Of a stretch of 36,427 bases of DNA, positions 6,046-12,359 are shown piece by piece. The DNA is from Salinivibrio proteolyticus. Its GTDB lineage: Bacteria > Pseudomonadota > Gammaproteobacteria > Enterobacterales > Vibrionaceae. Both the position numbers and the translations under genes were made by a program. The stretch's first letter is position 1. Each line of letters starts with the position of its first letter. The DNA lies in assembly GCF_001996165.1 (NCBI RefSeq), contig NZ_MUFP01000017.1:38043-74469 (forward strand), in the 5' to 3' direction. Under the pieces are notes generated by a model. It saw nothing but the letters and a program-made list of their open reading frames with translations, had not been told where the DNA came from and ran no database searches.

Positions 6046-6120
6046 TGGGGTATCGCCAAGCGGTAAGGCAACGGGTTTTGATCCCGTCATTCCCAGGTTC
6101 GAATCCTGGTACCCCAGCCA
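6046..6120 (+). tRNA. tRNA-Gln (anticodon UUG), copy 1
   Basis: 75 bases with CCA encoded. The acceptor stem TGGGGTA pairs with TACCCCA; the anticodon stem-loop is ACGGG-TTTTGAT-CCCGT with anticodon TTG; the T arm contains GGTTCGAATCC. It is identical in sequence to the copy at 6366-6440. Confidence 0.97.
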
Positions 6121-6122
6121 AC

Positions 6123-6199
6123 GCGTCCGTAGCTCAGCTGGATAGAGTACCTGGCTACGAACCAGGCGGTCGGAGGTTCGAATCCTCCCGGACGCGCCA
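6123..6199 (+). tRNA. tRNA-Arg (anticodon ACG)
   Basis: 77 bases with CCA encoded. The acceptor stem GCGTCCG pairs with CGGACGC, and the anticodon stem-loop is CCTGG-CTACGAA-CCAGG with anticodon ACG. The A34 would be edited to inosine (by TadA, from known biology) to read CGU, CGC and CGA. It follows the first tRNA-Gln by two bases, so the two must be cut from one transcript. Confidence 0.97.
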
Positions 6200-6241
6200 T
6201 CTTTCTTCAACTACCATGAAGTGAGATGAACAACTTGGAAT

Positions 6242-6326
6242 GCGGAAGTGGCGGAATTGGTAGACGCACCAGATTTAGGTTCTGGCGCCGCAAGGTGTGA
6301 GAGTTCAAGTCTCTCCTTCCGCACCA
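6242..6326 (+). tRNA. tRNA-Leu (anticodon UAG), copy 1
   Basis: 85 bases with a long variable arm typical of class II tRNA and CCA encoded. The acceptor GCGGAAG pairs fully with CTTCCGC. The anticodon stem-loop is CCAGA-TTTAGGT-TCTGG with anticodon TAG. It is identical to the copy at 6702-6786. Confidence 0.97.
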
Positions 6327-6365
6327 TTATTTGAAAGCATGTGGCGTAAAGCGGCATGACTAAGT

Positions 6366-6440
6366 TGGGGTATCGCCAAGCGGTAAGGCAACGGGTTTTG
6401 ATCCCGTCATTCCCAGGTTCGAATCCTGGTACCCCAGCCA
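6366..6440 (+). tRNA. tRNA-Gln (anticodon UUG), copy 2
   Basis: Second 75-base copy, identical to 6046-6120, with CCA encoded. The flanking bases differ apart from a short GT just before the 5' end, so the copies are distinct genes in one array. Confidence 0.97.
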
Positions 6441-6449
6441 CTTTAGGTT

Positions 6450-6526
6450 GGCTACGTAGCTCAGTTGGTTAGAGCACATCACTCATAATGATGGGGTCAC
6501 AGGTTCGAATCCCGTCGTAGCCACCA
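6450..6526 (+). tRNA. tRNA-Met (elongator, anticodon CAU)
   Basis: 77 bases with CCA encoded. The acceptor GGCTACG pairs with CGTAGCC and the anticodon stem-loop is CATCA-CTCATAA-TGATG. The paired first base and absence of the three G:C pairs of the initiator anticodon stem mark it as the elongator. As far as I recall it matches E. coli tRNA-Met(m) almost completely. A CAU anticodon can also belong to tRNA-Ile2, but the body is that of elongator Met. Confidence 0.93.
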
Positions 6527-6569
6527 TTCTTTCCGATTTGTCGCCAAAAGCGGTAAATCACACCGGTTT

Positions 6570-6656
6570 GCGGCGGTGGCGGAATTGGTAGACGCGCTAG
6601 CTTCAGGTGCTAGTGTCCGAAAGGACGTGAGGGTTCAAGTCCCTCCCCCCGCACCA
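6570..6656 (+). tRNA. tRNA-Leu (anticodon CAG)
   Basis: 87 bases, class II with a long variable arm and CCA encoded. The anticodon stem-loop is CTAGC-TTCAGGT-GCTAG. The acceptor strands GCGGCGG and CCCCCGC leave one C-C mismatch at the fifth pair (positions 5 and 68); the rest pairs. A mismatch at this pair is, from memory, also present in the E. coli Leu-CAG tRNA (A-C), so this is probably a functional gene. Confidence 0.94.
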
Positions 6657-6701
6657 AGACAATTGGTACTCAGCCCGCCCGCTGAGCTATCATAAAAATA
6701 T

Positions 6702-6786
6702 GCGGAAGTGGCGGAATTGGTAGACGCACCAGATTTAGGTTCTGGCGCCGCAAGGTGTGAGAGTTCAAGTCTCTCCTTCCGCACCA
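6702..6786 (+). tRNA. tRNA-Leu (anticodon UAG), copy 2
   Basis: Identical in all 85 bases to the copy at 6242-6326, with CCA encoded. It is the last gene of the array; a terminator hairpin starts 8 bases downstream. Confidence 0.97.
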
Positions 6787-7708: not shown

Positions 7709-9547
7709 ATGTGTGGAATTGTAGGCGCTGTGGCGCAGCGTGATGTGGCAGAAATTCTGGTTGAAGGCTTACGTCGCTTAGAATATCGCGGATACGACTC
7801 AGCAGGGGTCGCCATTACCGATACAAAGAGCGGGCAGATGACGCGTTTACGCCGACTGGGTAAAGTGGCGGCGCTCTCGGACGCAGTGGCTGACGCCAAC
7901 CCTGCTGGAGGCACAGGGATTGCGCACACGCGCTGGGCAACGCACGGTGAGCCAAGCGAAGCCAATGCGCACCCACACATGTCTGGCGATGATATTGCCA
8001 TTGTGCATAACGGCATTATCGAAAATCACCACAGCTTGCGCGAACAATTGCAAGCGCGTGGTTATCAATTCCACTCCCAAACCGATACCGAAGTGATTGC
8101 TCACCTCGTTGATTGGGAGCGTCGTCAATGTGGCGATCTCCTCGCCGCTTTCCAGCGCACTGTCAGTCAGCTTGAAGGCGCGTATGGCACTGTGGTGATG
8201 GATAAAAACCAACCTGAGCGTTTGATTGCGGCTCGTTCAGGCAGCCCGTTGGTGATTGGCCTGGGTGTGGGAGAAAACTTTCTCGCCTCTGATCAGCTAG
8301 CGCTGCTCAATGTTACCCGTCGCTTTATCTACCTTGAAGAAGGCGATGTGGCAGATATTAGTCGTCGTGAAGTGGTGATTTACAACCAAGAAGGTACGCC
8401 GGTTGAGCGAGAGGTGCATGAAGCAAGCGCCCAGTACGACGCGGCGGACAAAGGCCAATATCGCCATTACATGCAAAAAGAGATTTACGAGCAACCGACT
8501 GCGCTTACCAATACCATGGAAGGGCGTTTGGGCAACGATCATGTGATTGTGGATGCGATTGGTAACGGTGCTAGCGATATTCTTGCTAAAGCGCAGCATA
8601 TTCAAATCATTGCCTGTGGCACCTCCTATAATGCGGGCATGGTGGCGCGTTATTGGTTTGAATCGCTGGCAGGGATAAGCTGTGATGTGGAAATCGCGTC
8701 AGAGTTTCGCTATCGCCAGTTTGTCACCCGTCCGAACAGTGTACTGATCACCTTATCGCAGTCTGGTGAGACCGCAGATACGCTAGCAGCGCTGCGTTTG
8801 GCCAAAGAGCGTGGCTATATGGCCACCATGACCATCTGCAACGTGGCGGGCTCCTCGTTGGTACGTGAATCCGATCTGGCCTTTATGACGCGCGCGGGCG
8901 CAGAAATCGGTGTCGCATCGACCAAGGCGTTCACCACCCAGCTTTCTGCACTGCTGATGCTGGTCACCGCACTGGGTAAAATGCAGGGCACTATCGGATA
9001 CGAAAAAGAGCGTGAGATTGTCGATGCCTTGCATCATCTGCCTTCAAGTATCGAGCAAGCCCTGACCTTTGATAAAGCCATTGAGCAACTTGCGGAAGAC
9101 TTTGCTGACAAGCATCACTCACTGTTCTTAGGGCGTGGTGAGTTTTATCCGATTGCCGTAGAAGCTGCGCTAAAGCTAAAAGAAATCTCTTACATTCACG
9201 CTGAGGCCTATGCCGCTGGTGAGCTAAAGCACGGCCCACTGGCGCTGATTGATGCCGACATGCCAGTGATTGTTATTGCACCGAACAATGAGTTGTTGGA
9301 AAAGCTTAAATCCAATATCGAAGAAGTCCGTGCTCGTGGTGGTCAACTGTATGTGTTTGCCGATCAAGATGCCGGCTTTACACCGGAAGAGGGGATGAAC
9401 ATCATCGCCATGCCACACGTGGATGACATCATCGCCCCGGTGTTCTACACCATCCCGATGCAGCAATTGTCGTATCATGTGGCCTTGATTAAAGGCACGG
9501 ACGTCGACCAACCTCGTAACCTTGCGAAAGCCGTTACTGTAGAGTAA
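7709..9547 (+). CDS. glmS: glutamine-fructose-6-phosphate aminotransferase (isomerizing)
   Basis: Converts fructose-6-phosphate and glutamine to glucosamine-6-phosphate, the committed step to UDP-GlcNAc. The 612 residues compare with 609 in E. coli. The N-terminal glutaminase domain begins MCGIVGAV, with Cys2 as the nucleophile once Met is removed, followed by [11 protein letters not shown] and [18 protein letters not shown]. Two SIS sugar-isomerase domains follow ([45 protein letters not shown]), and the conserved end is [18 protein letters not shown] precedes the ATG. It is probably cotranscribed with the upstream regulator. I see no glmS ribozyme, as expected for a proteobacterium. Confidence 0.98.
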
Positions 9548-9562
9548 GCCTGCCTAACATTC

Positions 9563-9597
9563 ACCACGCTCTGACTAGGAGCGTGGTTGATCTTTTA
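9563..9597 (+). terminator. probable terminator after glmS
   Basis: ACCACGCTC (9563-9571) pairs perfectly with GAGCGTGGT (9579-9587) around a seven-base loop, followed by TGATCTTTTAT. The T run is short and interrupted, so termination may be partial. Confidence 0.7.
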
Positions 9598-9641
9598 TCA
9601 ATTACTGCCGTTTTGCTACAAAAATGCGATCTGCAGTGACA

Positions 9642-9669
9642 CATTTTGCAAAATGCAAATCATTTTGCA
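9642..9669 (+). promoter_or_regulatory. operator-like palindrome upstream of the first XRE gene
   Basis: CATTTTGCAAAATG (9642-9655) is a perfect 14-base palindrome. It overlaps TGCA-AAA-TGCA (9647-9657), and CATTTTGCA repeats directly at 9661-9669. It lies about 170-185 bases upstream of the XRE start and after the glmS terminator. The function is inferred from shape and position. Confidence 0.5.
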
Positions 9670-9703
9670 CTCAATCTCAGACATCCCGCCTGAAAATACA
9701 AAC

Positions 9704-9732
9704 AGAACGCTGTTCTATACCATAAGCTTATG
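9704..9732 (+). promoter_or_regulatory. two further inverted repeats upstream of the first XRE gene
   Basis: AGAAC-GCT-GTTCT (9704-9716) and the perfect palindrome CATAAGCTTATG (9721-9732) lie side by side; TATACC between them (9716-9721) could be a -10 element but lacks a convincing -35. Together with the neighbouring TGCA-N3-TGCA sites they make the 280-base gap dense in dyad symmetry. Confidence 0.35.
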
Positions 9733-9769
9733 ATTTTTATTGCTTTTAGTCCTGCCTAATAACTTGGCC

Positions 9770-9780
9770 TGCATTGTGCA
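9770..9780 (+). promoter_or_regulatory. TGCA-N3-TGCA site, 48 bases upstream of the first XRE gene
   Basis: TGCATTGTGCA has the same TGCA-N3-TGCA layout as the sites at 9647-9657 and 10312-10322. Its location between any promoter and the start codon would suit a repressor site. Confidence 0.45.
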
Positions 9781-9827
9781 TAGTCGATGGACAAGTACCA
9801 ACATTGATAAGTTGTAGAGAGGAAGCA

Positions 9828-10199
9828 ATGATTGACTCTAAAAACCAAGTCGCTAAGCGCATCAAAGAAGCCCGTGAGTGGAAAGGGATCACTCAAGTAA
9901 AAATGGCCAAGCTACTCAATGTCGCACGCCAAACTTACTTGGATATCGAAAACGGTAAAACCGAACCGCGTGTGCGCATGTTGTCGAACATCGCTGAGCT
10001 GACTGAGCGTCCATTAGTGTGGTTTGTGTATGGCGATGAAGATGTCGAGATGCACGATGTGCAGTACAAGCAAGATGTGAACCGCTTGTTGGAGCACTTC
10101 TCTCGTTTACCGCATGAAGCACGTACGGCGATCTTGAACCAGAGCGTGAACATGGCCTCATTCTTGGTGAACTATTCTAAGGCCGCACAGCGTGCCTAA
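9828..10199 (+). CDS. XRE/Cro-family helix-turn-helix regulator, first of a tandem pair
   Basis: A 123-residue DNA-binding protein with an N-terminal Cro/C1-type helix-turn-helix at about residues 8-62 (RIKEAREWKGITQVKMAKLL, NVARQTYLDIENGKTEP). The recognition region is probably NVARQTYLDI. The rest (about 63-123) is a short region with no enzymatic motif, perhaps for dimer formation. The ATG at 9828 is chosen over an upstream in-frame start at 9774 because AGAGAGGA sits seven bases before it. It is 61% identical (42 of 69) to the next gene product over the first 69 residues without gaps. The target is unknown; autoregulation through the TGCA-N3-TGCA sites is inference. Confidence 0.88.
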   Translation: MIDSKNQVAKRIKEAREWKGITQVKMAKLLNVARQTYLDIENGKTEPRVRMLSNIAELTERPLVWFVYGDEDVEMHDVQYKQDVNRLLEHFSRLPHEARTAILNQSVNMASFLVNYSKAAQRA

Positions 10200-10311
10200 A
10201 GGCCTGCCTGCCTGATTAGATATGCGGGTAAGTGCCTGCTTACTGAGGTAGGCATCAGCAGCGTAGCATCACACTATCGATGACAGCGCCCATGATAGGC
10301 CCGCCGAGCCA

Positions 10312-10322
10312 TGCATAATGCA
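10312..10322 (+). promoter_or_regulatory. TGCA-N3-TGCA site upstream of the second XRE gene
   Basis: TGCATAATGCA is a perfect inverted repeat around one central base and differs at one position from TGCAAAATGCA at 9647-9657. It lies 64 bases upstream of the second XRE start, in a 187-base gap that otherwise holds only short weak hairpins such as GTAAG-N6-CTTAC at 10228-10243. Confidence 0.5.
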
Positions 10323-10386
10323 AGGTCGGTGATGTGACGGGAGCCGATGTTTAAACGGCCCGGGTAACAGAGATGAGGCATGGACC

Positions 10387-10755
10387 ATGGTGATTTCGAC
10401 AGCGCGCATGGCGCAACGGATCCGTGAAGCACGGGAATTCAGTAAAATAACCCAAGTAGACATGGCGAAGCGTTTGAATGTGGCGCGCCAAACCTACTTG
10501 GATGTGGAGTCGGGAAAGACCGATCCTAAGATTCTCGCGCTCATCACGATTGCAGAGATCACTGGTCGCCCATTTAATTGGTTTATTTATGGTGAAACAG
10601 ACGAGCGAGATATTGCCTTCTCTCACCGCGATGATTTAGCGGCATTGACCAGTCTGTTAAGCCAGTTGCCTCAAGTGGCGCGCCAAACGGTGATGGATAA
10701 TGCCTTATCGATTGCCGAGTATCTGGTATCACTCTCGCCAGATAAGCGCGTCTAA
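10387..10755 (+). CDS. XRE/Cro-family helix-turn-helix regulator, second of a tandem pair
   Basis: A 122-residue paralogue of the preceding gene, with the same helix-turn-helix layout (RIREAREFSKITQVDMAKRL, NVARQTYLDVESGKTDP at about residues 31-47). The core LNVARQTYLD is identical in both, suggesting similar DNA recognition, while the C-terminal 50 residues have diverged (DDLAALTSLLSQLPQVARQTV). The start at 10387 is kept because it aligns without gaps with the first paralogue; GATGAGG about nine to fifteen bases upstream is a modest ribosome site, and an ATG at 10408 is the alternative. A strong terminator follows. The regulated genes are unknown. Confidence 0.87.
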   Translation: MVISTARMAQRIREAREFSKITQVDMAKRLNVARQTYLDVESGKTDPKILALITIAEITGRPFNWFIYGETDERDIAFSHRDDLAALTSLLSQLPQVARQTVMDNALSIAEYLVSLSPDKRV

Positions 10756-10766
10756 CCTCTGTTATC

Positions 10767-10794
10767 GGCCCGACATCCCCTGTCGGGCCTTTTT
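10767..10794 (+). terminator. terminator after the second XRE gene
   Basis: GGCCCGACA (10767-10775) pairs with TGTCGGGCC (10781-10789) around TCCCC, followed by five T residues. It reads on the + strand only; no T run is present for the convergent ilvA transcript. Confidence 0.92.
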
Positions 10795-10805
10795 GTATTA
10801 TTCGC

Positions 10806-12359
10806 TTAACGGCGAGAGAGAAAGAAGCGATAGGCTGGATTAGCCGTTTCGTCCTTCCACGCATAACCCAGTTCACGCAAATGGGCGGTAAACGCGAGTA
10901 AGTCCTGCTCGCCAAGTTCAAATCCACACAGCACACGGCCATAATCTGAACCATGGTTGCGGTAGTTGAATAAGCTAATGTTCCAGTGGGTGCCCAAGGT
11001 TTGCAAAAAGTGCAGTAATGCCCCGGGGTATTCCGGAAACTCAAAGCTATACAGGCGCTCGTTAAGCGGCACAGATGGTCGCCCACCAATCATGTAGCGT
11101 ACGTGTACCTTGGCCATCTCATCGTCAGATAAGTCTTCGACCGGATAACCAGCTTGGCGCAAATCATGCAGAATACTGTCGAGCTCTTCTTGCCCGCCCA
11201 GTAAACGTACCCCAACAAAAATATTGGCCAATTGGTCGTCGCCATAGCGATAGTTAAATTCGGTAACCGCGCGGCCACCAAGAATATCGCAAAACTTTAA
11301 AAATGCACCGGTTTGCTCAGGGATGGTCACCGCCAGTAGGCCTTCACGTTTCTCCCCCAGTTCAGCACGCTCAGACACGTAGCGTAGTGAGTGGAAGTTG
11401 GTGTTGGCGCCCGACAGGACCGCCCCCAATTGCTTGTTTTGTAGTTGGTGCTTGTCGACATAATGCTTGAGACCAGCGAGTGCCAAGGCACCTGACGGTT
11501 CAGAGATCGCGCGCGTGTCTTCGAAAATATCTTGTACGGCAGCACAAATCGCATCACTGGAGACGGTAATACTGTCGTCTAGGTATTGCTGACACAGTCG
11601 AAATGATTCGTCACCAATCCGTTTAACCGCCACCCCATCGGCAAAAGTTCCCACCCGCTCTAAGGTGACGGGAAAGCCTGCATCCAAGGCGGCACGCAGA
11701 CATGCGGAGTCTTCCGCCTCCACTCCGATCACCTTGATATTGGGCATAAGCTGCTTGATAAGCACCGCCACACCGGCAGCAATACCACCGCCGCCGACCG
11801 GGACAAAAATGTAATCAAGGTGGCTGTTTTGTTGCACCAGCTCCAGCCCGATCGTGCCTTGTCCGGCAATGACCTGCGGATGATCAAAAGGGGGCACAAA
11901 GGTATAGCCGTGTTGGTCGGCCAGCGCTTGTGCTTTGCTTTTCGCTTCATCAAAGTTATTGCCGTGTAGGACCACATTCCCCCCAAAGCCTTTAACGGCT
12001 TCAACTTTGATGGCGGGAGTGGTGCGGGGCATGACAATGGTGGCTTTGATACCCAGTTTACTGCCGGACAGGGCGACACCTTGGGCGTGGTTACCCGCTG
12101 ATGCAGCGATCACCCCCGCTTTTTTCTGCGCCTCTGTCAGCTGCGCCATCATGTTATGCGCGCCGCGTAGCTTAAATGAGTGCACGGGCTGCCGGTCTTC
12201 ACGTTTGAGCTGAACCTGATTACCTAAGCGTTCAGAGAGTCGCTTCATGGCCTGAAGTGGCGAGACAGTCGCCACTTCATAGACAGGCGCACGTAAAATA
12301 TTCCTTAAGTAATCGGGGCCATCCATGGGGTGTTCGGGTGACGTTTGCGCCTGTTGCAT
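10806..12359 (-). CDS. ilvA: threonine ammonia-lyase (threonine deaminase), biosynthetic
   Basis: PLP enzyme that converts threonine to 2-oxobutanoate and ammonia, the entry to isoleucine. The 517 residues compare with 514 in E. coli. The PLP lysine is K63 in HSFKLRGAHNMM, and the phosphate-binding glycines are in PVGGGGIAAG. Two C-terminal ACT-like regulatory domains follow (EGLLAVTIPEQTGAFLKFCD and RLYSFEFPEYPGALLHFL), which carry isoleucine feedback control in this family. The start is two bases after the ilvD stop, and its ribosome site GGAGGAATAA overlaps the end of ilvD, so translation is probably coupled. It is the last gene of the ilv operon. Confidence 0.98.
   Translation of the reverse strand: MQQAQTSPEHPMDGPDYLRNILRAPVYEVATVSPLQAMKRLSERLGNQVQLKREDRQPVHSFKLRGAHNMMAQLTEAQKKAGVIAASAGNHAQGVALSGSKLGIKATIVMPRTTPAIKVEAVKGFGGNVVLHGNNFDEAKSKAQALADQHGYTFVPPFDHPQVIAGQGTIGLELVQQNSHLDYIFVPVGGGGIAAGVAVLIKQLMPNIKVIGVEAEDSACLRAALDAGFPVTLERVGTFADGVAVKRIGDESFRLCQQYLDDSITVSSDAICAAVQDIFEDTRAISEPSGALALAGLKHYVDKHQLQNKQLGAVLSGANTNFHSLRYVSERAELGEKREGLLAVTIPEQTGAFLKFCDILGGRAVTEFNYRYGDDQLANIFVGVRLLGGQEELDSILHDLRQAGYPVEDLSDDEMAKVHVRYMIGGRPSVPLNERLYSFEFPEYPGALLHFLQTLGTHWNISLFNYRNHGSDYGRVLCGFELGEQDLLAFTAHLRELGYAWKDETANPAYRFFLSRR

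Follow-up and report, generated by a model that had tools for sequence, protein, structure and literature searches.

What controls a pair of small XRE regulators whose upstream regions share a palindrome? In Salinivibrio proteolyticus, a stretch of 36,427 nucleotides (the window) contains two such genes, flanked by glmS (7709-9547) and a convergent ilvA, and three copies of TGCA-N3-TGCA at 9647-9657 (site 1), 9770-9780 (site 2) and 10312-10322 (site 3). The original prediction regarded them as one operator, shared by two proteins that would regulate themselves and each other. Comparison of relatives suggests a different organization, in which gene 1 is very probably a second direct output of the quorum-sensing response regulator LuxO, beside the Qrr small RNA, switched on at low cell density by phosphorylated LuxO (LuxO~P) together with sigma-54. 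Cell density, relayed through LuxO~P, would then most likely be the signal for this predicted promoter.

The XRE gene pair and its relatives

Gene 1 (9828-10199, plus strand), the predicted LuxO/sigma-54 target, encodes p1, an XRE regulator of 123 residues, and gene 2 (10387-10755, plus strand) encodes p2, a faster-evolving paralogue of 122 residues. Both are XRE/HTH_3 regulators, with HTH_3 scores of 54.1 bits (E-value 1.6e-14) for p1 and 42.1 bits (8.9e-11) for p2 against a Pfam cut-off of 23, and they are 46% identical over 117 aligned residues. The domains, the alignment and the neighbouring genes thus agree with the earlier description of two paralogous XRE regulators between glmS and the convergent ilv side. 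The same description gave 61% identity over the first 69 residues, which corresponds to the 42/69 counted from the alignment, and a LNVARQTYLD segment that is indeed common to both proteins in this genome.

Homologues of p1 were found in 100 of the 150 family genomes (E<=0.001), with only weak matches in genera g10 and g12. Of 35 fetched loci with gene 1 relatives, the 24 close homologues (L001-L024) come from Salinivibrio, Enterovibrio, Grimontia, Veronia and Candidatus Enterovibrio, and 11 remote ones (L025-L035) were dropped. Forty further family loci, a selection from the p1 homologues outside this near clade, bring the total to 65 with the window; these loci are not independent (L021 and L022, for example, are near-identical). 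Free-living members of the near clade have p1 copies of 91-99% identity, and the four symbiont loci L020-L023 have copies of 84-85%. For p2, identity is 88-92% within Salinivibrio and 57-67% beyond: the Enterovibrio and Grimontia copies reach 57-63%, when their p1 reaches 91-93%, and one Veronia p2 has 67% over a part. Outside Salinivibrio, glmS is 78-84% identical where found (73% in L020, some copies being in pieces) and ilvA mostly 79-82% (73% in L021 and L022, in two pieces in L019). By these identities, p1 is the most conserved of p1, p2, glmS and ilvA. Gene 2 was found in 44 of the 65 loci. In L024 (2204-2573), from Salinivibrio socompensis, the p1 match is split between frames, as from a frameshift or a sequencing error near its end.

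The AlphaFold2 model of p1 (mean pLDDT 84.5, pTM 0.57) is composed of an HTH and two long C-terminal helices. Small XRE/HTH_3 repressors, such as SinR, CylR2, C.BclI and phage repressors, have the same N-terminal HTH, but differ from the p1 model in its long C-terminal helix pair, and their similarity is mostly limited to the HTH. Structure and sequence searches with p1 returned HTH proteins of many functions, mainly through the common HTH fold, and were set aside as a clue to its function; neither protein reaches the cut-off of any NCBIfam family listed. More specific roles were rejected in turn. For a HipB/HigA-type antitoxin, couple_hipB gives 33.3 and 30.3 bits with a cut-off of 71.65, and the neighbours are glmS and ilvA, with no toxin gene. 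The seven phage records matched by p1 are remote (36-41% identity over 52-60% of p1), which argues against a phage repressor or a phage origin. Replacement of AphA by p1 was discarded as well, since a protein with PF10400, the AphA-type C-terminal domain, is present in this genome (8/9 genomes tested).

Conserved elements upstream of genes 1 and 2

Site 1 is contained in a 13-bp box, TTGCAAAATGCAA (9646-9658, no strand assigned), which is an exact match to the LuxO-type enhancer (UAS) TTGCAWWWTGCAA, as given in the available part of PMC10162802. The qrr promoters carry 13-mers of the same form and, in the available part of the V. cholerae ChIP-seq study (PMC10328515), the LuxO site of qrr1, ttgcaaaatgcaa, matches the window's box at every base. 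TTGCA-N3-TGCAA was present in 19 of 21 loci (window, L001-L019 and L024), with one base off in the other two, and alignment of the near-clade loci delimits a conserved block TTGCA-N3-TGCAAATCATTT(T/C)GCA. An extra half-site, TTTTGCA (9663-9669, no strand assigned), adjoins the box in the alignment, and the qrr promoter of this genome has a TTTGCA in a similar position. Genome-wide, TTGCA-N3-TGCAA occurs seven times (reversed control, 0): once before the Qrr RNA adjoining luxO, five times inside mechanically called reading frames (93 to 648 aa), and once in the window. A mechanical ORF from TTG also covers the qrr box, and the LuxO start was taken from the alignment instead. In two uncultured Enterovibrio loci (L021:5770-5796 and L022:522-548), three overlapping tandem TTGCAATTTGCAA are found upstream of p1, plus TTGCATTTTGCGA further down.

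Site 2 overlaps the element TTGGCCTGCATTGTGC (9764-9779, plus strand), located downstream of the UAS and containing GG-N10-GC. By sequence it is a -24/-12 element of sigma-54, with (C/T)TGGC-N9-GC following the consensus. The conserved part of the site is TTGGC-N9-GC, or (C/T)TGGC-N9-GC across loci; this strict form of the element, within 100 bp of gene 1, was found in 61/65 loci, versus 0.35% of mononucleotide shuffles. The four exceptions are L126, with no element, L116, with GA for the -12 GC, L120 (TTGGA) and L127 (TTGGT). Upstream of this element, TAAGCTTATGATT (9723-9735, minus strand) is an IHF-like site with one mismatch to the IHF consensus YAANNNNTTGATW. In a search of the 100 bp before the -24 element, 48 of 63 loci had their best IHF-like match at a distance of 38-42 bp from it; there was no mismatch in 21/63, versus 1% of mononucleotide shuffles, and two mismatches in 12/63. 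The same two blocks stand out when six Salinivibrio loci are compared with 12 of the 15 Enterovibrio, Grimontia and Veronia loci (72 pairs): identity is 79% in the box block and 75% in the sigma-54 block, versus 37-46% between them and 31% upstream.

Site 3, TGCATAATGCA (10312-10322, plus strand), is of another kind. It includes CATAAT (10314-10319), the probable -10 hexamer of gene 2, and a TCACA element (10269-10273, plus strand) lies upstream. TCAC(A/G) and an ATAAT-type hexamer, with 44-46 bp from one start to the other, occur together in 39/44 loci, all except L094, L095, L106, L111 and L115, though this pattern was found by looking, without a control. By eye, no sigma-54 element was seen before gene 2. 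Gene 2 thus seems to have its own sigma-70-type promoter, with the -10 hexamer inside site 3. A LuxO or XRE operator placed over this hexamer, repressing gene 2, is an unlikely alternative in which the conservation of the near clade would find an explanation: 20 of the 44 gene-2 loci, all near clade, have TGCATAATGC, spacer included, before gene 2, and in this genome site 3 is one base from a LuxO box, with a LuxO matrix score of 13.3. This score is, however, seldom shared by relatives, which range from 0.8 to 13.9 and mostly have 7.5-8.2, whereas the qrr boxes used for the matrix all have at least 16.8, and site 3 was consequently rejected as a LuxO site. The matrix derives from 19 distinct boxes chosen by pattern, so its scores favour that pattern.

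LuxO and other candidate activators of gene 1

The box with TTGGC-N9-GC 60-120 bp downstream occurs at two places in this genome, the qrr promoter and the gene 1 promoter. The distance from box to TTGG is 86 bp at qrr, the single match to the 60-90 bp form, and 118 bp at gene 1, the single match to the 91-120 bp form. Among the 150 family genomes, the longer form is present in 43 and lies upstream of gene 1 in 20 of them; the other 23 belong to other genera, and several of their matches adjoin listed qrr genes. The shorter form is present in 89 genomes and marks gene 1 in two, G071 and G104, some of its matches resembling coding sequence. Reversed controls over both strands of the 150 genomes gave four matches for the 91-120 bp form and five for the 60-90 bp form. 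The box and sigma-54 architecture precedes gene 1 in Salinivibrio, Enterovibrio, Grimontia and Veronia. In a g12 genome, a match at G117:C5:120712-120833 has no adjoining Qrr among the matches listed, and may represent a further LuxO target, a Qrr outside that list or a chance occurrence.

The corresponding machinery is encoded in this genome. LuxO (481 aa) is encoded next to qrr and to a LuxU-like ORF, which was identified by eye on the basis of sequence and of position beside luxO; Qrr scores 83 bits (gathering, 50) and the RpoN domain 238.5 bits. The gene 1 promoter resembles the qrr promoters of Vibrionaceae in its 13-bp box, its -24/-12 element and a similar distance between them. What lies downstream is different, namely a Qrr RNA in qrr promoters and a protein-coding gene here: in 9500-10900, Rfam returned four matches at E up to 1, with no Qrr RNA (RF00378) among them, and as all four are far below gathering score, a structured RNA was rejected for this region. 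Pairing of Qrr with the gene 1 start was also rejected, being weaker (-33.4 kcal/mol) than the null median of -40.6. With the gene 2 start it reaches -53.5 kcal/mol, close to the 5% point of the null (-53.3) and the strongest of six starts tried, which we do not count as evidence.

We infer LuxO binding, sigma-54 dependence and a density response of gene 1 according to the following scheme. While cell density is low, LuxO~P would occupy the box at 9646-9658. A bend in the DNA, probably made by IHF near 9723-9735, would then carry it to the sigma-54 RNA polymerase at 9764-9779. Transcription of gene 1 would start at about 9790. Gene 2 would be transcribed from its own sigma-70-type promoter, and read-through from gene 1 is also possible.

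LuxO is usually described as acting via Qrr RNAs. According to the available part of PMC10328515, LuxO is found in V. cholerae almost only at qrr genes, with five ChIP-seq peaks, four at qrr1-4 and a weak fifth between cspD and clpS, and no XRE gene like gene 1 is named there. Against this background, a conserved target that encodes a protein would be new. No report of one conserved across genera was found in the literature searched, which included the available parts of PMC10162802, PMC11407668 and PMC10328515 and covered few papers of subscription journals. If gene 1 is such a target, the low-density programme of other Vibrionaceae would include a branch that runs directly through a protein.

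Could gene 1 depend on sigma-54 but on another enhancer-binding protein, for example a SypG-like one, rather than on LuxO? Two groups of relatives bear on this question. Of the 35 loci of genus g8, 33 keep the sigma-54 element, but the boxes are mostly degenerate: by LuxO matrix two are in the qrr range (17.7), four score 15.0, one 12.9 and 28 have 10.6 or less, 13 of which are still at p<=0.05 versus shuffles. This genus is probably Photobacterium, because the LuxO of one g8 genome is closest to the solved structure 5EP0, identified as V. angustum LuxO in the available part of PMC10162802. Another activator, or a changed site, may operate at the gene 1 promoter in g8. Upstream of p1, many g8 promoters (L088-L116) have, instead of the LuxO box, TTGCGAAAT with TGCRANTCAA-like elements about 30 bp further down.

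The second group is Candidatus Enterovibrio, which are host symbionts. In two reduced genomes, G002 and G021, a search with filters strict enough to miss weak matches gave no Qrr, and LuxO has no close orthologue, its best relative reaching 55-56% identity. Both genomes retain gene 1 and its sigma-54 element; the box is kept in G002 (L023) and one base off in G021 (L020), and p2 was not found at either locus. LuxO therefore need not be the sole activator. In both, the LuxO-like protein is encoded downstream of an ORF with an HPt-like sequence (L177 and L178; by eye). In V. fischeri, according to the available part of PMC10162802, qrr1 is activated by SypG via LuxO-type sites, with LuxO-type boxes and sigma-54 as here but at a different gene; hence, a SypG-like protein may act in the symbionts.

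For the genome analysed here, such an activator in place of LuxO is nevertheless improbable. No second LuxO relative near 55% is encoded (the next best is 41% identical by score, and another has 46% over a part), and the gene 1 box has the same form as the one at the genome's own qrr. LuxO thus remains our preferred activator of gene 1. A wider and rather tentative extension of this reading, with less than even chances, is that Salinivibrio, Grimontia and Enterovibrio have two parallel low-density outputs of quorum sensing, Qrr and p1, the latter being a further low-density master regulator with p2 as its first target, and that p1 passed to a SypG-like activator in the Candidatus Enterovibrio symbionts without LuxO and Qrr.

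The palindrome cluster

The three palindromes are present at the positions originally indicated, and sites 1 and 3 do differ by one base. A fourth copy, at 1375-1385, had been overlooked and has a low LuxO matrix score (7.9). The motif had been expected less than once in a window of this size, which is contradicted by dinucleotide shuffles, with a mean of 1.89 copies and 10/100 reaching four. The whole genome (3.60 Mb) contains 67 copies, or roughly one in every 54 kb (reversed control, 26), so the three copies in 676 bp are unusual, as had been claimed for a span of about 680 bases, yet the motif is too common to serve as sole evidence. By a Poisson estimate, about 0.005 such clusters are expected genome-wide, for a motif picked after being seen and uncorrected for that choice.

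The three sites differ in their conservation pattern among relatives. Near relatives keep the palindrome at sites 1 and 3, but at site 2 it is found in only 5 of 25 near loci (window, L010, L013, L014 and L016; the set is the window plus L001-L024), the others having, e.g., TTGGCGCGTATTGTGC. In more distant homologues, only the ATAAT core of site 3 was found, and TGCATAATGC was present in none of 23 loci outside the near clade. The sites thus look regulatory, as proposed, but conservation and matches to known elements separate them into three different elements: by sequence, site 1 is an exact LuxO enhancer box and site 2 a sigma-54 element, and site 3 is most likely part of an ordinary promoter. 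On these comparisons, the cluster is read as a look-alike of three distinct elements. That the palindromes are operators for self- and mutual regulation by the XRE proteins is very unlikely: the clustering in 676 bp, the retention of sites 1 and 3 in the near clade and the LNVARQTYLD segment of p1 and p2 would suit it, but sites 1 and 2 match, at the correct spacing, elements of another system, site 2 retains GG-N10-GC rather than the palindrome, and site 3 is confined to the near clade. Use of these sites by LuxO or sigma-54 would by itself be no bar to XRE binding of the same DNA.

Further upstream, the window carries seven tRNA genes at 6046-6786 (Gln, Arg, Leu, Gln, Met, Leu, Leu), followed by a DeoR-like gene, recognised by eye, and glmS.
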